NCBI GenBank assembly: GCA_017552965.1
Contig: JAFZNQ010000010.1
Span: 1 to 64,000, forward strand
Reading direction: 5' to 3'
From: Abditibacteriota bacterium
GTDB lineage: Bacteria; Armatimonadota; UBA5829
DNA length: 64,000 bases
A program made the translations under genes and the position numbers. The notes under the pieces were generated by a model. That model saw nothing but the letters and a program-made list of their open reading frames with translations, had not been told where the DNA came from and did no database searches. This document shows, piece after piece, positions 16,271 through 32,402 of the stretch. Position 1 is the first letter of the stretch, and every line of letters starts with the position of its first letter.

Positions 16271-18541
16271 ATGTACGAGCTTTCCGACAGGATCCAGAGA
16301 CTCCGCGAAGAAGCGGTCAACAGCAAAACCTACATGAAAAACTGGGGCTTGCAGCGCCACCTGTACTATACTTTGGGCGCCTGTGAAGCCAGACTGAGAG
16401 GCGAGACCAACACGGAGATAGTCGCCTCCGGCATGACCAGGACCATAGACAGCTTTACTCCCGTGATAATCCCCGGAGAGATACTGGTTGGCTTTACCAT
16501 CGGAGAAGGAGAGCACTACTTCATACCTCAGGAAGAGACGGCCTGCCGTCGGGCTCTGACGGACAACGGCGCCACCCCCGAAGACATCGAGAAATTCCTG
16601 GCCTTCGTCAAGGAGCCTCCCGCCAATCCTGTCCCTGACCCGGAGCCCGACCTGACCGAGGAAGAGATCCGCACTCAGCAGGATCACACTGCCCTGGGCT
16701 GGTGCTGCTCTCAGAACCACTCGGTCATCGCCTACAAAAAGATCCTTGAAAAGGGCTACGAAGGCATGCTCCGGGAAGTGGAAGAAGGCGAGAAAAAGAA
16801 CGGCCCCCTGCCCATTTACCGAGCTATGAAGCGCATCTGCCTCTCCGCCTGCGATCTGGGCAAAAGATATGCCGACAAGGCCCGGGAGCTGCTGCAACAG
16901 GCCGACTCCGATCACGAAAAGGCAGATCTGGAAGCCATTATCCGGATCTGCGACAGAGTCCCCCGTCATCCGGCGACCTCCTTCATAGAAGCGGCTCAGT
17001 CCCTGCTCTTCGCTCATATACTGAACACCTGGGAGGACGACGTCAACGCCAACTCTCTGGGGCGTCTGGATCAGATACTCTATCCCTACTACGCGGCCGA
17101 CAGAGAAAAAGGCATACTCACCGACCGGGAGGCATTTGAGATCATCTGCGCCCTGTGGATCAAGCTCTACAGGGACTATGACGTTCAGCAGTCCTGTATA
17201 GGCGGCACGGACGCCGAAGGCAATAGCCAGGTCAATCCCCTGTCTTATCTTATGCTGGACGCCACCGAAGCCCTGGGCTTCGTGAGGTGTCTCTCCGTCC
17301 GGTATTCTGCCCGGACAGAGAAGGAGTTCCTGAGAAGGGCTCTGGAGGTCACCGCAAACGTGGGAAAGGGCGTGCCCTTCTTCTTCAACGACGACGTGAT
17401 GATCCCCGCGCTGGAATACAAAAAGATCCCTCATGAGGACGCCTGCGGATACACACAGATAGGCTGTGTGGAGACTGTCATCCCCGGCAAATCCAACCCC
17501 CACGCCGTCAGCGGACAGATCAACGTGCTGAAGACCATAGAATACATACTCTGCGACGGCTATAATATGAATCGTCCCGAGCTCAAAAGCGGTCTTTCTC
17601 TGGGCGACTACGAGTCCCTGGACACCTATGAGAGCTTTTGCGAGGCGGTAAAAAAGCAGATGGCCTACATGTTCGACCAGAGCTGCATCAAGATCAAAAA
17701 GACAGCCGACGCCTGGGTCCACGTGTTCCCCCGCCCCTACAAATCCCTGTTGACTGAGGGCTGCATCGAAAGAGGCCTTGATTTTAACAACAAGGGCGCT
17801 CTCTATGATTATTATCAGGTGTGCATATGCGGCATACCCAACCTGGCAGACTCCCTGACAGTCATCAAAAAATTCGTCTATGACGACAAGCGCTACACAC
17901 TGACAGAGCTGAAGGAGATCCTCCTTGGCAACTTTGCCGACGAAGCCGTCAGACAGGAATTCGTGCGCAAGGCACCCAAGTACGGCAACGACATCGAAGA
18001 GGTGGACAGTCTGGCTGCCCGCATCACCGATTATGCCTGCGACCTGCTGGAAGAATATTCGGACAAGTATCACATGTCCTACCACGCTCAGCCCTTCACC
18101 TTCCTGTGGATGATCGACCACGGACACGCCACCGCAGCCTCACCCGACGGCCGCCGGGCGGGCGAGCCTCTGGCCTACAGCTGCTCCGCCATGCAGGGCA
18201 GAGACCACAAAGGTCTCACCGCCCTGCTCAACTCCATATGCGGACTGCCGGGCAAAAAGGCCCCGGGGACCATTTCGGCCATCGTGGAGACCGACCCCAA
18301 GCTGTTCAGCAGCCACAATATCGACCTTATGACAGACACCCTCATAGCCGCAGGCAAAAAGGGTCTCTCCAACGTGCAATTCAACATAGTGGACGCCGAT
18401 ACCCTCATTGACGCCCAGAAGCATCCGGAGCACTACAGCAATCTGGCCGTGAGAGTGTCCGGCTTCAGCCAGAAGTTCAATCTGCTGTCGCCGGAATTGC
18501 AGAACCATATCATAGGAAGAACCAAACACCAATGTCTGTAA
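16271..18541 (+). CDS. Glycyl radical enzyme 1 (CVE-type, substrate unknown)
   Basis: A 756-residue member of the pyruvate formate-lyase/glycerol dehydratase superfamily. The thiyl-radical Cys is Cys399 in IGCVETVIPGK and the glycyl radical is Gly731 in VRVSGFSQKF, followed by the conserved SPELQNHIIGRTKH tail. The CVE motif marks dehydratase/lyase-type members; true pyruvate formate-lyases have Cys-Cys. The Asp found 14 residues after the Cys in diol dehydratases is absent here (Val413 by simple counting). The RVSGF form is unusual, since most have RVxGY. Its cognate activase overlaps the last 10 nt. GGAGGACATT precedes the ATG. Cytoplasmic, oxygen-sensitive by family. The substrate may be a product of the preceding lyase and propeller proteins, which is inference. 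Confidence 0.9.
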   Translation: MYELSDRIQRLREEAVNSKTYMKNWGLQRHLYYTLGACEARLRGETNTEIVASGMTRTIDSFTPVIIPGEILVGFTIGEGEHYFIPQEETACRRALTDNGATPEDIEKFLAFVKEPPANPVPDPEPDLTEEEIRTQQDHTALGWCCSQNHSVIAYKKILEKGYEGMLREVEEGEKKNGPLPIYRAMKRICLSACDLGKRYADKARELLQQADSDHEKADLEAIIRICDRVPRHPATSFIEAAQSLLFAHILNTWEDDVNANSLGRLDQILYPYYAADREKGILTDREAFEIICALWIKLYRDYDVQQSCIGGTDAEGNSQVNPLSYLMLDATEALGFVRCLSVRYSARTEKEFLRRALEVTANVGKGVPFFFNDDVMIPALEYKKIPHEDACGYTQIGCVETVIPGKSNPHAVSGQINVLKTIEYILCDGYNMNRPELKSGLSLGDYESLDTYESFCEAVKKQMAYMFDQSCIKIKKTADAWVHVFPRPYKSLLTEGCIERGLDFNNKGALYDYYQVCICGIPNLADSLTVIKKFVYDDKRYTLTELKEILLGNFADEAVRQEFVRKAPKYGNDIEEVDSLAARITDYACDLLEEYSDKYHMSYHAQPFTFLWMIDHGHATAASPDGRRAGEPLAYSCSAMQGRDHKGLTALLNSICGLPGKKAPGTISAIVETDPKLFSSHNIDLMTDTLIAAGKKGLSNVQFNIVDADTLIDAQKHPEHYSNLAVRVSGFSQKFNLLSPELQNHIIGRTKHQCL

Positions 18542-19443
18542 CAGGCTGTATATCCAATATATCCAGAGCTTCTGTTCACGACGGTCCGGGCATACGAACC
18601 GTCGTGTATTTCAAGGGCTGCTCTCTCAGATGCCGCTGGTGTCACAATCCGGAGACCCAGCAGACCCTGCAGGACATCATGTATGCCCCTGTCAAATGCA
18701 TAGGGTGCGGCAGATGTGTCGCAGTGTGTCCCGATCACCACAAGGCGGGAGAGCAAAAGATGGTCTTTCTCAGGGAGGGCTGTCTCAGGTGCGGCAAATG
18801 CGCCGAGGTATGCCCCTCCGAAGCCTTGTCCGTCAGCGGCAGTCCCGCAGACGGCGAAGAGGTGATAAAGGAAGTGCTGAAGGACAAGCTGTATTATCGG
18901 GAAAGCGGAGGCGGAGTGACTCTGTCCGGAGGCGAATGCCTGCTGCAGCCGGACTTTGCCGCATATATACTTTCCCGGTGCAAAGAGGAGGATATATCCA
19001 CCTGTGTGGAAACGGCCCTCTGTGTAGCTCCCGAGGCCATCGACAGGGTCCTGCCTTACACGGATCTGTTTTTGACGGACCTGAAGATCCCGGACCCCAA
19101 AAAGCACGCCGTATATACGGGCAGGGACAACAGCCTCATCATTGCCAATCTCCGCTCACTGGCCCCCCGGGCCAGGGTGCTGGCGCGCATTCCCCTCATC
19201 CCCGGAGTCAACGATTCCGAAGAGGACAAGGAGGGCTTTGGGGAGATCCTGTCCGGTCTCCGGGACAGCCTGACCGGCGTGGAGGTCCTGAGATACAACT
19301 CCATGGCCGAGTCCAAATATATACTTGCCGGCAGAGAATATTCCGGCTTTGGCGAAGCTCAGACCGATGAAGCCATGCTGGAGTTTTGCGACTCCCTTCA
19401 GAGCCGGTTGCCGGAGGGCCCACGGGTATATACGGTGATATGA
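18532..19443 (+). CDS. Glycyl radical enzyme activase (radical SAM)
   Basis: The activating enzyme that uses S-adenosylmethionine and a [4Fe-4S] cluster to create the glycyl radical on its partner. The radical SAM motif CSLRCRWC (Cys-x3-Cys-x2-Cys) lies near residue 30, preceded by the family signature VHDGPGIRTVVYFKG. Two ferredoxin-type clusters follow (CIGCGRCVAVCP and CLRCGKCAEVCP), as in activases of dehydratase-type glycyl radical enzymes. SGGGVTLSGGE is the SAM-binding GGE region. Length 303 is normal. The ATG overlaps the end of the glycyl radical enzyme by 10 nt, so the two are co-translated. A perfect terminator follows 3 nt after the stop. Confidence 0.92.
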   Translation: MSVTGCISNISRASVHDGPGIRTVVYFKGCSLRCRWCHNPETQQTLQDIMYAPVKCIGCGRCVAVCPDHHKAGEQKMVFLREGCLRCGKCAEVCPSEALSVSGSPADGEEVIKEVLKDKLYYRESGGGVTLSGGECLLQPDFAAYILSRCKEEDISTCVETALCVAPEAIDRVLPYTDLFLTDLKIPDPKKHAVYTGRDNSLIIANLRSLAPRARVLARIPLIPGVNDSEEDKEGFGEILSGLRDSLTGVEVLRYNSMAESKYILAGREYSGFGEAQTDEAMLEFCDSLQSRLPEGPRVYTVI

Positions 19444-20465: not shown

Positions 20466-23400
20466 TTACTCTCTGTCCAGGGACACGGTCACCGTCTGCC
20501 AGAACTGAGGATCATTGCATTCAAAGTTGCCCATGAACTGGTATTCTCCGCTGCCCTGAGCCACCTTTACCAGCAGTCTGTTCCACCCCTGCTTCAGGAG
20601 CAGACGGGTCTCAAAGCCAAAGTATTCCGGAGCGCAGGAGTGGATCCTGGCGTCTTCAAAGACGGGAGACCCGTTGAGAAACACCTTGCAGCCGTCGTCG
20701 CTGCAGCCCACCAGATAGAGCTTGGGGGCGTCGGGATCCAGCAATATCTCGTCGAGAGCTCTGGGAGAATGGATCCAGAGGGACAGGTAGGACGCGCAGT
20801 CCTCATTGGTTCCGTCCAGATCAAACTTCAGTGAATCCCGGTCTGCGGATATAGTCTTCCAGCCTTCCGCCGGGTCGTCAAAAGCTACGTATTCTGTCTG
20901 CATGGCCTCCTCGAAGGTCTTGGCAGGGAATATGGCGCTCTGCTTCATTTTGCGGATGACGCCCAGAGAGGAGCAGGCAGAATCCGTGTCTTCGTCATTG
21001 TCCCTCAGCACGATGCCCAGATATGCAGCCAGACCGGCAGTCATGGCGGCCATATCCCCCGAGTATTCCGAGCTCATGGAGCACAGATATATATCTCCTC
21101 TGTCCTTCTTTAGCCTGACAAGGGCGGAGGCGTCCGGCTTGTATTCCCGCTCCGAACGGTAGAGGGAGCCGGTCTTGATGTTTTCCGGCTCGTAGTTCCA
21201 GCGGCGCCAATCGGCCCCGGAGGGGTCTATGAGCCTTTCGCCCTTCTTCAGCGCCTCCCCTCCTATGCCGTATTTCATGATCATCTGATTGGAGGACTGA
21301 GTAAAGTAGAGCAGTCTGTTGGGCAAAACGTCCGACACCAGAGACGTGGACTCTCTCTGGACATAGTCTGCAGAAACAGGCAGCAGCTTGTTGACGTATG
21401 GCAGAGACTCCTCCGTAAAGCCCCAGATGAGCACGGGCTTGCCGCCGGAGGAGTATTCCGTGACCAGGGAAGCTATCTCCGGATAATTCTTGGCGTCTAT
21501 CCCGGTCCCGTCCACCAACAGCAGCTCGCCCATATCCTCCACGGGCCAGCCGGCAAACCTGAGAGTATTCACCATCCGGGAGCTCTCCTGCGCATAGGCT
21601 ACCTGCAGGATATGAGGCTCCTCTGCCTCCGCCGACGCGCTTTTGGGTATTTCCGTATACGGGAAGTCCTTTGTGTCTCCCGTATAGGCAGCCTTTACCG
21701 CATCAAACAGAGGCCAGGGCTCATAGAGAGGCAGGTTGGGATCGTAGCCGGGATTCAGGGTGGTACAATAAGGGCCCAGGCGCTGAGGCTGCGCTCCGTG
21801 CTGGCCGTCTCTCTGTTTTGCGAAGAATATACCGTCAGTGAGAGCCGGCTCCCGGGAGGTATCCTCCATACCCAGAGCCAGAGGCTTCAGTCCGTACCAT
21901 ACCATGTTGAAGACCGATGCATAGGCAGCGTTGTTAGCCAGCTGCCTGTTGACCAGATGGTCATAAGCCTCGCAGGCCAGAGCCTCCATACGCCTCTGCT
22001 GATCGATATACACGGTATCCCCGTACCATTCCAGATCCCGGGGCGTGCCGTAATAGGCCGCTCCGGACTCTCCCACTCCCCAGGGACCGCCCTTGGCAGC
22101 CGCTTTTTTGCAGGAGTCCATATCGGCATAGTGGAGCATATCCACCGGGATATAGCCGTCCAGATCTCCGCTGCCGTCTGCGGATATCCAGTCTCTTGTG
22201 GGGTCCAGCCTGCGGATAATGTCGGTCAATGAGCACAGACGCTTCACTATATCTGCTTTTTCCTCCGGCTCATACATATAGGCGCAGGGCACGCTTTCGT
22301 TTTCCACGCTCCAGCCAAAGACGGAAGGATGATTCCTGTCCCTTGTGACCAGCTTTTCAATATGGGAGGCAAATCTCTCCCAGGTCTCATTCTCCAGGAA
22401 GTTGAAGGCGCAATGGCTGTCCCATATACCGCTTTCGTCCAGCACGGCTATACCCATCTCGTCAGCCACGTCCAGATAGAATTCGGGATAAGGCTGAGCA
22501 TGGAGCCTGACCGCATTGCCGCCGGCGTCCTTGATGGCAGTAAACCAGGCCCGGGCGTATCGGCGGGTCAGCTGAGGGATGCCCATAAAGTGCCAGGAAT
22601 CCCCTTTCAATACCACCTTTTCACCGTTGAGATACAGGCTGTCCCCAACGATGTCAAAGCTTCTGTATCCGAAACGCCGGGAAAGGGAATCGCAGGTCCT
22701 GCCCTCCACGCTCAGAGAAACGGAAGCCAGATACAATACGGGATGGTCCATGGACCACTTTTCGAGACCAGACGCGTCTGCGTAGAGCACCGCCTCTTCA
22801 GAGCTGCCGGGCTCCAGCTCCACCTCGACAGACCCGAAGGCCCCGGCTCTGGACCCGGCGCGTCCCCGGTCTTCGGAGGAATCGCCGCCGACCCAATCAA
22901 AGATGCTGCCGGCGACACGGATACGTTTTTTGGCGCCTGTCCGGTTCACCAGAGTGACCAGCGCTTTTACCCTATCCGTATCCGGCTCGGGAATGACAAA
23001 CACGTCCCGGCAGGCTACGGGATTTTCCGAGGTAATATACACGTCCTGCCAGACGCCTGCTATATGCATGCCCCAGAAGGAGCCTGTGGGATAGGTGTAG
23101 TCTCCCCCCTTACTCTTCTTGTTCATCACGGAGCTCTTGCGGACACGGAGCCGCAGGGTGTTGTCTCCGTCCCAGCGGACATAGGGCGTGATGTCGAAGC
23201 GGAAGGGCAAAAACGAGTCAAAGCCTTCGCCGGCCTTGCTGCCGTTCACATACACTTCAAAGGGGCCGGCCACAGCCTTGAACTCCGCATATATCACCCT
23301 GCCCCGCCACAGCGAAGACAGGCGAAAGCTGCGGGTCATATAGCCGCACATATACCTGTCCCAATCGGCAGGATATGAAGGATAGCAGCGAAAATCGCCT

Positions 23401-23666
23401 CCTCTGCCCTGGGAATAGGAGTTCACGTTCCAGGGCGAGGGTATGGATATAGGGACCCGGGAAGAAGAGGCCTGCTCATAAGAAGCCTCCGGGTCCTCGC
23501 TGCCCCGGAACTCCCATTCCCCGTTCAGGCACATTTCTCCTCTGACGGGTATATCCCGTGCTTCCAGGATCCCCTTGTCGGGGGCAAAATCGCCCGGGAA
23601 GAGGTGAGCGGCAAATACAGGGCTGACCAGTGCCAGCAAAAGAGCTATCATATAGAGTTTTTTCAT
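20466..23666 (-). CDS. Secreted GH2 family glycoside hydrolase
   Basis: A 1066-residue GH2 enzyme with a clear signal peptide (MKKLYMIALLLALVSPVFA), so it acts outside the cytoplasm, unlike the beta-mannosidases. The domain order is jelly roll (NGEWEFRG...MTRSFRLSSLW), Ig-like, TIM barrel, then a long C-terminal region ending in a further sugar-binding-like beta sandwich. Acid/base Glu457 (GWSVENES) and nucleophile Glu533 (GVGESGA) are both present, so it is probably active. Specificity (galactosidase, glucuronidase or mannosidase) cannot be assigned. The frame extends 20 codons upstream; the ATG at 23666 begins the signal peptide and has GGAGAA upstream. Confidence 0.88.
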   Translation of the reverse strand: MKKLYMIALLLALVSPVFAAHLFPGDFAPDKGILEARDIPVRGEMCLNGEWEFRGSEDPEASYEQASSSRVPISIPSPWNVNSYSQGRGGDFRCYPSYPADWDRYMCGYMTRSFRLSSLWRGRVIYAEFKAVAGPFEVYVNGSKAGEGFDSFLPFRFDITPYVRWDGDNTLRLRVRKSSVMNKKSKGGDYTYPTGSFWGMHIAGVWQDVYITSENPVACRDVFVIPEPDTDRVKALVTLVNRTGAKKRIRVAGSIFDWVGGDSSEDRGRAGSRAGAFGSVEVELEPGSSEEAVLYADASGLEKWSMDHPVLYLASVSLSVEGRTCDSLSRRFGYRSFDIVGDSLYLNGEKVVLKGDSWHFMGIPQLTRRYARAWFTAIKDAGGNAVRLHAQPYPEFYLDVADEMGIAVLDESGIWDSHCAFNFLENETWERFASHIEKLVTRDRNHPSVFGWSVENESVPCAYMYEPEEKADIVKRLCSLTDIIRRLDPTRDWISADGSGDLDGYIPVDMLHYADMDSCKKAAAKGGPWGVGESGAAYYGTPRDLEWYGDTVYIDQQRRMEALACEAYDHLVNRQLANNAAYASVFNMVWYGLKPLALGMEDTSREPALTDGIFFAKQRDGQHGAQPQRLGPYCTTLNPGYDPNLPLYEPWPLFDAVKAAYTGDTKDFPYTEIPKSASAEAEEPHILQVAYAQESSRMVNTLRFAGWPVEDMGELLLVDGTGIDAKNYPEIASLVTEYSSGGKPVLIWGFTEESLPYVNKLLPVSADYVQRESTSLVSDVLPNRLLYFTQSSNQMIMKYGIGGEALKKGERLIDPSGADWRRWNYEPENIKTGSLYRSEREYKPDASALVRLKKDRGDIYLCSMSSEYSGDMAAMTAGLAAYLGIVLRDNDEDTDSACSSLGVIRKMKQSAIFPAKTFEEAMQTEYVAFDDPAEGWKTISADRDSLKFDLDGTNEDCASYLSLWIHSPRALDEILLDPDAPKLYLVGCSDDGCKVFLNGSPVFEDARIHSCAPEYFGFETRLLLKQGWNRLLVKVAQGSGEYQFMGNFECNDPQFWQTVTVSLDRE

Positions 23667-24048
23667 GATATGGGTTCTCCGAAAGATATACACTATATTG
23701 TAGCACATATGGAAGAGAATAGGCATATGGTCATATGTTTTTTAAGAGCAGCCATTTGCAGGTAGCCAAAAATGGGCGTCATCCTGCCCCCCAAAAGCCC
23801 TTTCCCTCCTGTTTTAGCAAGATCCCGCCTGTGGATAAATCTTCCGGGCCTGTTGACAGCCTGTGGATAAGACGCAAGAACCTGTGGAAAACCTCCGCTA
23901 TCCTGTGCATAACCACGCATTCCTGTGGATAAACGCCGGTTTGCCTGTGGATATCCTGTGGATACAACTGTTTGCTGCCACAGATGCATCCTGACCGGCC
24001 CCAAAGCCCCACACGCCCGGATGCACTCCTGCCCTGTGCGCGGCGCAC

Positions 24049-24078
24049 TTGAAAAGAGAGGCTTCGATATAGTATAAT
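24049..24078 (+). promoter_or_regulatory. Promoter of rfbD-ileS
   Basis: TTGAAA at 24049 and TATAAT at 24073 are 18 nt apart. A second TATAAT at 24089 overlaps the AT-rich tract. The promoter lies inside the candidate origin region. Confidence 0.65.
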
Positions 24079-24109
24079 TAATATTGATTATAATAGATAT
24101 ATACTATAT
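24067..24109. repeat. 10-bp inverted repeat in AT-rich tract
   Basis: Arms ATATAGTATA (24067-24076) and TATACTATAT (24100-24109) flank 23 nt of AT-rich sequence just upstream of the rfbD Shine-Dalgarno. Could be an operator, the unwinding element of an origin, or chance in AT-rich DNA. Confidence 0.6.
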
Positions 24110-24124
24110 TAACGAGGTGATAAT

Positions 24125-25000
24125 ATGCGCGTCTTGCTCACCGGCGCTGCCGGTATGCTTGGCATGCAGCTTATTATTAAGCTTCTCAGCCGCAACCACC
24201 ACATCATTCCTACGGACTACAAGGGGCTCCACAACGTGATCAACGTGGATATATGCAATTCCGAGCAGGTCTTCGCCATATTTGAGAAGACCAGTCCCGA
24301 TTTCGTGATCCACACGGCAGCCCTGACCGACATTGACAAGTGTACTCTGGAGCCGGATCTGGCATACAGAGTCAACGTCCAGGGAACGTGGAACGTAGCG
24401 GCTGCGGCGGCCAGGCATGACGTGCCCATAGTGTTCATCAGCACCGACAACGTGTTTGACGGCATGAAAAACGGCCCCTACACCGAGTACGACAGGCCCA
24501 ACCCGCTCAACACCTATGGTCAGAGCAAGCTGGCGGCGGAGTATCACATCAGGAATCTGACGCGCAAGTATTTTATCATCCGCACCTCATGGCTGTTTTC
24601 GGAAAAAGGCAAGAACATGCCTCTCTTTATCCTGGACACCGCCATGAAGCAGCACAACATACACATAGCCGCGGACCAGATAGCTTCGCCCACCTACGCC
24701 AAGGACCTGGCAGAATTCATAGCAGACCTGCCCGACAATTACCTCTACGGTACTTATCATTTTACCAACAAGGGCTCCTGCTCCTGGTACGAGCTGGCAA
24801 AGGACATCCTGTCCCTTGCAGGCATCAGCGGCGTCACGGTCACTCCCGTGGCCTCCAACGAGTACAAGTCGCCTACCAGAAAGCCCAGGGCTTCCGTGCT
24901 CAGACATTACAATCTCGAAATGCAAAACAAAGACAATATCAGGCATTACAAGGATGCACTTAAGGAGTTTATATCAGAATGGATTACAGCAAAACAGTAA
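24125..25000 (+). CDS. rfbD: dTDP-4-dehydrorhamnose reductase
   Basis: An extended short-chain dehydrogenase (RmlD/RfbD) for the last step of dTDP-L-rhamnose synthesis, reducing the 4-keto group with NAD(P)H. Seen: the nucleotide loop GAAGMLG (residues 7-13), HTAALTDIDKC, STDNVFDG and the catalytic YGQSK (Tyr-x3-Lys, about 128-132). At 291 residues it is complete. No other rml gene is present, so rhamnose synthesis must rely on genes elsewhere. Its end overlaps the ileS start by 22 nt, so the two are co-transcribed. GAGGTG precedes the ATG. A MAT2B-like or other NAD-sugar reductase is less likely. Confidence 0.85.
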   Translation: MRVLLTGAAGMLGMQLIIKLLSRNHHIIPTDYKGLHNVINVDICNSEQVFAIFEKTSPDFVIHTAALTDIDKCTLEPDLAYRVNVQGTWNVAAAAARHDVPIVFISTDNVFDGMKNGPYTEYDRPNPLNTYGQSKLAAEYHIRNLTRKYFIIRTSWLFSEKGKNMPLFILDTAMKQHNIHIAADQIASPTYAKDLAEFIADLPDNYLYGTYHFTNKGSCSWYELAKDILSLAGISGVTVTPVASNEYKSPTRKPRASVLRHYNLEMQNKDNIRHYKDALKEFISEWITAKQ

Positions 25001-29007: not shown

Positions 29008-32000
29008 TCAGAAGCTGGTCCTGAAGTTCAGCATCACGTTCTCGGGCTGCAGATTGGTCTGCTGCACACCGTTCACCAAAGCAGTAGCCTTGCTGGCGGA
29101 TATGCCCAGGAAACCGTCGGAGCTGATCTTGCGCTCATAAGACACGTTGTAGGAAAAATCTACCTCGTCTTCATCCATATTCCTTCTGTCGGTAGTGATA
29201 CCGCCCTCTATGGTCCACTTGCCTTCCCGATCCTTTCTGGTACCGGAAAGACCGAACTTCAATACTTCCTCGCTCTTGGTCAGCTGATTGGCATTGTTCA
29301 GGTTGTTGAAGGTATATTTCAGCGTCAGGTCATTGTAGGCGTTCAGCTTGTGGGTCAGACCGAACTCCTTGGTCTTCACAGGGATAAAGGACTTCTGGTC
29401 GGTCCAGTTTCCGTCCACCTTGTTGTAGAGAGCGCTGAGCTTGTCATTCAGGGCATAGGACATATTGAGCCTGTCCGTATCGCCACGGACGCCGTTGGTC
29501 TGAGTGGTGGTATTGTCTTCATACTTCACACTGATTGGCGTACCGAATACCTTCTCGTTGACATAAGAGAGCTTTTCGTTCTCGATGTAGTAGGACTTGT
29601 GATTGGCCTCCAGGATATTGCTCCGTTCCATGAGGAACTTGCCGTTTAAAAGGTCGGCAGTGAAGCTGTAGCCTGCATCATACTTGTCATTGATAAGCTT
29701 GACCTTTTTGGTGTCATACTTATAATTGACGGCCATATCCTTCACGAATTTGTCCGAGAACAGCCTGGGCAGCTTGCCCGTGACAGTCAGATACTGCACG
29801 TCCGTATCGTTGCCGTCGCCTCCCAGCTTCTGATCCACCGAATAATTGACGGCGAAGTTGTCGTTGACGGAGTATATGACTCCGTACTTCAGCCTGTTCT
29901 CATCCTGAATGGTGTTGTAGTCGGTGACTCCGTAGCCAAAGGTAAGAGCTATCTTGTCGGTGATCTTCTGATGAGCATACAGGTCGTACTTGGTAAAGGC
30001 GCTGGCGCCGTGATCAAAGTCGTTGGACTGATAGTCCAGGTTCAATACGAACTTCTGGCTCTGATCGGACTTCAGGCTGACGTCCAGTATCTCCTGATCG
30101 ATAGGTCTCCTGTTGCCGTCCAGATACGAATTGGTATAGTACTGACTGTAAAAGCTGATGTTCTTGAACTTGCCCAGATCCAGGATCTTGTTCATCCTGG
30201 CGATCTTGGTCTTGTTGTCCACAAAGTTCACGCCGCCGGCGCTCTCGGTGTAATCATTGGAGAACCAATAAGCGTTGAACTTGTCGTTGGGCTTGTAGGT
30301 GACGTCGTACAGCAGCTTGCCGATATCCTGATCGGTGACAGCCTTTTTGGCGTCCACCAGATAGGCGTTGACGTCCAGAGTCTGGTTGGTCTTGCCCATC
30401 TTGAGATTCAGGTCGTATTCGGTCCTCTTGAACCCCTTGTTTGCCTGCTGATTGGCTCTGTCGGCATCGTAGAGGTCCAATACTCTGGTAAAGGCATCGT
30501 CAAAGTCCATGTAGCGTCTGGCAAAAGACACCTTGGGCGAAGCGTAATTGAAATAATTCCGCTTGTACCCGGAGCCGGTGACGCTGTCATATATACTGTC
30601 GTCCGAATACCTGAAGTATCCCAGCTTGGTGGTGGTCTCCAGGCCGTACACGCTCCTGCGCATACCGTACTGGTTGTTGTAGCCGCCTATCTCCTGAGGA
30701 GTCAGAGCATACAGCCTCCTGAATTCGGAGTCTATGTCATCCTTGCGGTACCACAGCTTGTAGGTCTTGTTGTTGTAGCCCAGGTTGATCATATCCAGAC
30801 CGGCATTGCCGGCGGACTTGTCCCTGATGGTGCTCTTTGCAAAGGTCAGGGCGCTGTCGGGGGACAGCACGTACTTGCTGTAGATGAGGGACCTGTCCAG
30901 CCCGGACATGTTGTTCCAGGAAGCCCTGTCCTGATCGGATACGCTGTTCATATCCGTATTATAGTCAAACATCTTCTTCACGTAGCCCGTCAGCCTGTTC
31001 TTCTCGTTGGCATCGAGAGCATACATGCGGTTGAAGTCGCCCTTGCTGGACACGGAAGCGTAGCCCATCTCCAGGTTCTTGTAGGCCAGATTGACCATGC
31101 TGGTGTCCAGAGAAGCGCCGTTTTGCCTCAGCTTGGACATATAGAAGGTCTGCCACAGAGGAGCCTCTGCGGTAGAAGTATTGTACTTCAGGCTCAGGCC
31201 CGTGCGCTTCATGCCGTCTTCCAGGGAATACTGCCCCTTGTCGCCCTCTCTCAGGCTGCCGTAACGCCCGAAGCCCTCGTCTATGCTCCTGGACAGATAG
31301 TCCAGCTGGAACTTGGCTCCTGCCAGACTCAGAGTCCTATTGGAGATATCCTTGCCGTTGTTGGATATCTTGTTGTCGGCATAGGCCAGATCGGCAAAAT
31401 TGACGAACTTGTAGTTGAAAGCCATGGCGGTCCTATCAAGACCGGCCTCAGCCTTCATGGCGCCCTTGTCGGCCTCTCTCAGGCTGTCATAACGGGCGAA
31501 AGCGCCGCCGTAGCTGTTCTTGCTGTAGCTGAACTGCATGCGGTCGTTGTTGAAGCCTATGGCAGTGGATTCCACCTTGTCGTTGGCGTCCTTCACGGAG
31601 CTGTAGGCCATGGAAAGGCTGCCCAGGTTGTTGAAGCTGTAATTCAGACCCAGGTTGTTCCTCTTCAGACCCTTCTCTGCCAGCATCTGGCCCAGCAGAG
31701 AGCCGTCTATGCCGGAATTGGCGGCCAGATATGCATCTCCGGCAAAGGTGGAGTCGATCTCCTGATAGCCGGCGGTGATGGAGCCGCTCTTGCCCAGATT
31801 GAGGGTGAGATTGTGCACGTTGAAATCGCCGGATCTCTGAGCGTCGGTGTTATTGAGAGTGTTGTTGTAATAATAACTGTTGAAGCTCAGGATACCGCCA
31901 AGGCTGGACTTGATGTTGGTGCCATAGGTCATGTCGCCGGTCATGGCGTCGGTAGTGTTGAAGCCCAGAGCCATGCTCAGCGAGTTGTTGCCTCCGGAAA

Positions 32001-32367
32001 AATCCAGGAACGGAAGGGTGGCAGAGGTCACTGCGGCGCTCTTGGCGACACCGGGCTTGTAGTAGTAGTCCACGGATACGAAGTCGCCCTTCTCCAGCTT
32101 TTTGGAGAAGGTCAGCACCGAGGTGGCGTAGTCTATGGTGTACTCATATTTGGACTTGCTGAGGGGGACGCCGTTCAGATACACGTTTTCCGTATCTGCC
32201 AGAATGCCTCCCATTGCAAGATTGATGGTCGTGCCGTTGGCTTTTACGGTCAGGTATTCACGGTTGATCTTATAATCGTCCACGTCCGCATATGACGGAA
32301 CGGCAGAAGCGAATACTCCTGCTATCACCAAAACCAATATTAAGCTGTTAAGAAGATTGCGCATCAT
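29008..32367 (-). CDS. Giant secreted beta-barrel-like protein with internal repeats
   Basis: A 1119-residue exported protein. The signal peptide is NLLNSLILVLVIAGVFASA, and the chain is dominated by alternating strands ending in FRTSF, a C-terminal Phe as used for outer-membrane barrel assembly. Length suggests a very large barrel. Residues about 290-650 hold a degenerate repeat: F-x-R-x3-L at 290, 366, 445, 549 and 626, each followed by G-[LMF]-x-R. I start it at the ATG at 32367, not at the GTG at 32376, because AAGGAG is then at proper spacing. It has its own promoter. I recognise no family; a porin, surface or TamB-partner role is speculative. Confidence 0.8.
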   Translation of the reverse strand: MMRNLLNSLILVLVIAGVFASAVPSYADVDDYKINREYLTVKANGTTINLAMGGILADTENVYLNGVPLSKSKYEYTIDYATSVLTFSKKLEKGDFVSVDYYYKPGVAKSAAVTSATLPFLDFSGGNNSLSMALGFNTTDAMTGDMTYGTNIKSSLGGILSFNSYYYNNTLNNTDAQRSGDFNVHNLTLNLGKSGSITAGYQEIDSTFAGDAYLAANSGIDGSLLGQMLAEKGLKRNNLGLNYSFNNLGSLSMAYSSVKDANDKVESTAIGFNNDRMQFSYSKNSYGGAFARYDSLREADKGAMKAEAGLDRTAMAFNYKFVNFADLAYADNKISNNGKDISNRTLSLAGAKFQLDYLSRSIDEGFGRYGSLREGDKGQYSLEDGMKRTGLSLKYNTSTAEAPLWQTFYMSKLRQNGASLDTSMVNLAYKNLEMGYASVSSKGDFNRMYALDANEKNRLTGYVKKMFDYNTDMNSVSDQDRASWNNMSGLDRSLIYSKYVLSPDSALTFAKSTIRDKSAGNAGLDMINLGYNNKTYKLWYRKDDIDSEFRRLYALTPQEIGGYNNQYGMRRSVYGLETTTKLGYFRYSDDSIYDSVTGSGYKRNYFNYASPKVSFARRYMDFDDAFTRVLDLYDADRANQQANKGFKRTEYDLNLKMGKTNQTLDVNAYLVDAKKAVTDQDIGKLLYDVTYKPNDKFNAYWFSNDYTESAGGVNFVDNKTKIARMNKILDLGKFKNISFYSQYYTNSYLDGNRRPIDQEILDVSLKSDQSQKFVLNLDYQSNDFDHGASAFTKYDLYAHQKITDKIALTFGYGVTDYNTIQDENRLKYGVIYSVNDNFAVNYSVDQKLGGDGNDTDVQYLTVTGKLPRLFSDKFVKDMAVNYKYDTKKVKLINDKYDAGYSFTADLLNGKFLMERSNILEANHKSYYIENEKLSYVNEKVFGTPISVKYEDNTTTQTNGVRGDTDRLNMSYALNDKLSALYNKVDGNWTDQKSFIPVKTKEFGLTHKLNAYNDLTLKYTFNNLNNANQLTKSEEVLKFGLSGTRKDREGKWTIEGGITTDRRNMDEDEVDFSYNVSYERKISSDGFLGISASKATALVNGVQQTNLQPENVMLNFRTSF

Positions 32368-32402
32368 GATGATCACACTCCTTAGACACTTTATTCATAT
32401 AT

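Follow-up and report, generated by a model that had tools for sequence, protein, structure and literature searches.

A unidirectional, helically phased array of probable DnaA boxes away from the inferred replication origin of an Abditibacteriota draft genome

Results

The locus and its genes

The window analyzed is a stretch of 64,000 nucleotides that covers positions 1-64000 of the 68.8-kb contig C10 in genome G000, a 2.78-Mb draft in 138 contigs that is 97% complete and whose contig order is not derivable. The closest named relative found was the rumen Abditibacteriota MAG RGIG3508, with 67% identity in IleS. The box array described here lies between two genes that diverge, as an earlier note on this DNA had reported: a glycoside hydrolase family 2 (GH2) gene on the minus strand (open reading frame 20466..23726, with the true start probably at the ATG near 23666), and rmlD on the plus strand (24125..25000; dTDP-4-dehydrorhamnose reductase family), which is followed by ileS, lspA and lgt. 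A near-consensus sigma-70 promoter (TTGAAA-18-TATAAT, 11/12) is predicted on the plus strand at 24049-24078, about 85 bp downstream of the array, and is probably that of rmlD. Elsewhere in the window, a PFL-like glycyl radical enzyme is paired with its own radical-SAM activase (16271-19443), and the minus strand at 29008-32376 encodes a large protein, possibly a beta-barrel of the outer membrane, which has a signal-like start and contains many repeated blocks.

A phased array of direct repeats

Seven TGTGGATAA-type boxes and one weak copy occupy 23830-23965, all on the plus strand, in agreement with the earlier note. The sequence occurs without mismatch at 23830, 23862 and 23924, and with one mismatch at 23883 (TGTGGAAAA), 23904 (TGTGCATAA), 23946 (TGTGGATAT) and 23957 (TGTGGATAC), and the weak copy at 23851 reads TGTTGACAG. 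The start-to-start spacings of 21, 11, 21, 21, 20, 22 and 11 nt were correct as given. Inspection of the flanking bases revealed that CC precedes every copy, so that the repeated unit is the 11-mer CCTGTGGATAA and all copies start with CCTGTG. Counted in this way, boxes 1 (23828..23838), 2 (23860..23870) and 5 (23922..23932) are perfect, the weak box (23849..23859) is CCTGTTGACAG, and boxes 3 (23881..23891), 4 (23902..23912), 6 (23944..23954) and 7 (23955..23965) are CCTGTGGAAAA, CCTGTGCATAA, CCTGTGGATAT and CCTGTGGATAC, respectively.

The window contains 30 matches to the box with at most one mismatch, where 9.5 +/- 3.0 would be expected. The largest group within 140 bp held seven of them, versus one or two in 300 windows simulated with a first-order Markov model. 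When the box starts were placed on a 10.5-bp helical period, the mean resultant length was R = 0.966, a value reached by none of 20,000 sets of random spacings of similar total length (P < 5e-5), which bears out the proposal that the boxes lie on the same helix face. The array is therefore not a product of chance, since simulated windows contain no more than two boxes per 140 bp and the starts share the 10.5-bp phase. Nor is it a plain tandem duplication, because conservation is confined to the 11-mer and the spacers bear no relation to one another. The same CCTGTGG-type 11-mer is found in the inferred origin of G000 and in a cluster upstream of hrcA, both described below, and because it is shared with the genome's own inferred origin, the repeats are very probably DnaA boxes. 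Their layout appears suited to cooperative binding on one face. As an above-chance DnaA-box cluster, the array has one property of an oriC, and in a genome-wide scan it was the tightest direct box group.

Anatomy, GC skew and conservation

The array had been put forward as a candidate oriC followed by an AT-rich tract. The tract is real (24073-24112, 92.5% AT), but it starts 107 bp past the last box, beyond a stretch of 70-77% GC, and coincides with the predicted rmlD promoter region. Beside the array boxes we found neither an adjoining AT-rich unwinding element nor a TAG/TAA run of the DnaA-trio type.

At an origin, the strand-corrected skew should go from negative to positive. To the left and to the right of the array, the raw GC skew of C10 was negative. 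The strand-corrected third-position (GC3) skew, in a group of genomes where GC skew is weak, was -301 to the left and -413 to the right and fell steadily along the contig. No reversal or minimum was seen at the array, the sign being the same on both sides across the 68.8 kb of C10. Because the corrected skew falls through the whole contig, both flanks are apparently parts of a single replichore. The skew minimum postulated for this site thus lies elsewhere, as far as a draft of 138 contigs allows.

The rmlD-ileS pair is syntenic in most relatives. A box cluster upstream of it was absent in all 17 relatives that were readable there, ranging from the same genus (G001) to the same phylum; the locus is missing from the assembly of the closest relative, the sister species G002. 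In the readable relatives the array does not hold a conserved position or gene context, and the cluster that does sits before recF. As for G001 itself, its HrcA is only 39% identical (C34:2360-3355, locus L129, on a contig that is apparently very AT-rich) and its IleS 67% identical, a mismatch that may reflect a wrong bin, a wrong genus or a replaced gene.

A recF-linked origin and a displaced dnaA

Neither dnaA nor dnaN is near the array, as had been noted: dnaA is on C39 (24966, with argJ about 10 bp further downstream) and dnaN on C99. G000 encodes one ordinary DnaA, with a normal domain IV and the recognition motif GGKDHTTV. No box cluster was found beside its dnaA on C39, and an origin beside dnaN was rejected since no box cluster was present there either.

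A screen of relatives for boxes in the neighborhood of dnaA and recF showed a cluster directly after dnaA and before recF in 10 genomes of this family and its sisters (f1-f3), namely G003, G004, G008, G011-G015 and G018, and more weakly G001. The usual pattern, relative to the recF match, is plus-strand boxes near -210 and often also -185, and minus-strand boxes near -109, -63 and -54. The cluster stays with dnaA in G009 and G005, where recF is gone; it stays with recF, in the same pattern, in G006, where dnaA is gone; and part of the pattern precedes recF in G010. In G000, the box scan detected opposed groups upstream of recF at C4:103974-104227 (loci L264 and L279), with plus-strand boxes at 103974, 104020, 104032 and 104050 followed by minus-strand boxes at 104069-104165. 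An AT tract of 92-92.5% AT begins at 104167, directly beside the last box, and recF (104228) follows immediately. Because this arrangement matches the dnaA-cluster-recF origin of the family, C4:103974-104227 is the probable oriC of G000, from which dnaA would have moved away. The suggestion of an origin away from dnaA therefore seems to hold for this genome, but at the recF-linked site on C4 and not at the array. A Fimbriimonas genome (phylum Armatimonadetes) also has dnaA, dnaN and recF scattered, with a jagged skew (PMC4072686).

On C4, the raw cumulative skew is lowest at about 92-96 kb and the corrected skew at about 88 kb, rising through 104 kb, so that the inferred origin is about 10-16 kb from the skew minimum. 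Skew being weak in the group, this is supporting, not decisive, evidence. Origin mapping by skew was also attempted in a complete relative (G019), whose sampled skew was weak and jagged and whose box cluster at 1781.9 kb lies well apart from both dnaA (1588 kb) and recF (2565 kb). Family f4 carries a conserved palindromic box pair, TTTTCCACAGCCTGTGGAAAA (G019 C1:1781.9 kb; counterparts L178-L180), in the vicinity of acpS and of an nnrD-like gene for NAD(P)HX repair and near neither dnaA nor recF; the AT skew shifts close to this pair.

Other box clusters

A genome scan for paired direct boxes, proposed earlier as a check, returned only two dense groups outside the C4 origin. The array was one of them. 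The other group consists of six opposed boxes in the intergenic region upstream of hrcA (C4:65922-66102; locus L021 5923-6110), 38 kb from the inferred oriC, and has a recognizable counterpart upstream of hrcA in G002 (L128). As an oriC it was rejected, its AT tract being weaker (75%) and the corrected skew continuing to fall past the cluster (left -187, right -41), and it is regarded as a second cluster outside the origin.

G039 and G099, which belong to a distant family of the phylum, have a dnaA-linked origin of about 14 boxes as well as small direct arrays elsewhere, each of three boxes at 21/11-nt spacing. One three-box match (C1:899820 and C126:22262) lies within an open reading frame, may be coding and was left out of these satellite clusters. 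In another family of the phylum, G037 has a 15-box cluster far from dnaA (C55:7708-7864, locus L054), which is either an origin that has moved or a further array outside the origin.

Discussion

A non-origin cluster is the simplest account of the array, because skew, conservation and anatomy all speak against an oriC there and a better origin exists. We consider it probable, though well short of certain, that the array is a DnaA-box cluster outside the origin on which a head-to-tail DnaA filament forms, titrating DnaA, acting on the rmlD-ileS-lspA-lgt promoter, or both. With several DnaA boxes outside oriC it would be a DBC-like cluster, an assignment conditional on the inferred oriC being right. 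DnaA would bind the high-affinity CCTGTGGATAA boxes and polymerize head to tail over about 140 bp, as the boxes have the same direction, lie on one helix face and are separated by one, two or three helical turns; boxes in directional or direct repeat are known to favor head-to-tail oligomers of ATP-DnaA (PMC10316083). The filament would not open the DNA, there being no adjoining unwinding element. It would instead keep DnaA away from oriC by titration, in the manner of the B. subtilis DBCs or E. coli datA, and from its place upstream of the rmlD promoter it may also tune transcription of rmlD-ileS-lspA-lgt. Titration of DnaA by the chromosome is described for E. coli (PMC12371093), and in B. 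subtilis removal of all six DBCs outside oriC leads to early initiation (PMC5295017). A far bolder version, to which we give very little credence, is that such a phased, unidirectional filament site was gained in this lineage with the departure of dnaA, replaces local dnaA-oriC coupling as the control of initiation in this bacterium and couples initiator availability to the envelope/lipoprotein operon rmlD-ileS-lspA-lgt.

The array could also serve mainly in transcriptional control, DnaA or its nucleotide state regulating rmlD-ileS-lspA-lgt or the GH2 gene and titration being a side effect. DnaA is also a transcription factor at box arrays, binding upstream of sda and other genes (PMC4447404), and the location between divergent genes, a short distance upstream of a near-consensus promoter, is consistent with such a role. 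However, no boxes precede the syntenic rmlD-ileS in the readable relatives, so that DnaA regulation of the operon would be lineage-specific. In addition, most DnaA-regulated promoters need fewer than seven boxes, and we therefore regard this explanation as unlikely.

Less likely still, the repeats bind another protein that happens to prefer TGTGGATAA-like DNA, or represent the functionless remains of a tandem repeat. DnaA binding is here a prediction from sequence, and the units are near 21 nt, as such a repeat might be. Against this, conservation is limited to the 11-mer, the spacers being different, and the 11-mer is shared with the origin candidate of G000. A mobile-element origin and an RNA element were both rejected, as no match was found in phage or plasmid collections and no Rfam family was matched. 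That the array is the chromosomal oriC, or half of a split origin, moved from dnaA is very improbable: the tight direct grouping, the helical phase, the downstream AT-rich tract and the lack of a cluster beside dnaA would fit, but the skew does not reverse, the readable relatives have no such array, the AT-rich tract sits behind GC-rich DNA and overlaps a promoter with no trio run by the boxes, and C4 offers a conserved recF-linked cluster with an adjoining AT tract.

To our knowledge, non-origin DnaA arrays have been described in few phyla. The present case shows that in a draft genome a strong DnaA-box array can pass for oriC. It also indicates a better origin for a little-studied Abditibacteriota-related family, namely a set of boxes that lies between dnaA and recF and that dnaA has left in G000. 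A regularly phased non-origin array would also allow a clean test of DnaA titration beyond model organisms.

Among known systems, the array resembles the oriC of Thermotoga maritima (PMC10316083) and, within its own phylum, the dnaA-linked origin in family f17, in both of which DnaA boxes form direct repeats spaced by roughly one or two turns of the helix. Unlike these direct-repeat origins, the array is without an adjoining unwinding element, a skew reversal or a dnaA, recF or dnaN neighbor, and a better candidate lies elsewhere. E. coli datA is likewise a non-origin group of high-affinity DnaA boxes, which lowers active DnaA (PMC5295017), but datA needs IHF and stimulates ATP hydrolysis, its box arrangement differs, and no homology is claimed. 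The array, known from its sequence, differs from the B. subtilis DBCs in its single direction, its strict 10.5-bp phase, the organism and the loci, and it shares with them the occurrence of several box clusters off oriC, for which DnaA binding and a brake on initiation have been proposed in B. subtilis (PMC5295017).
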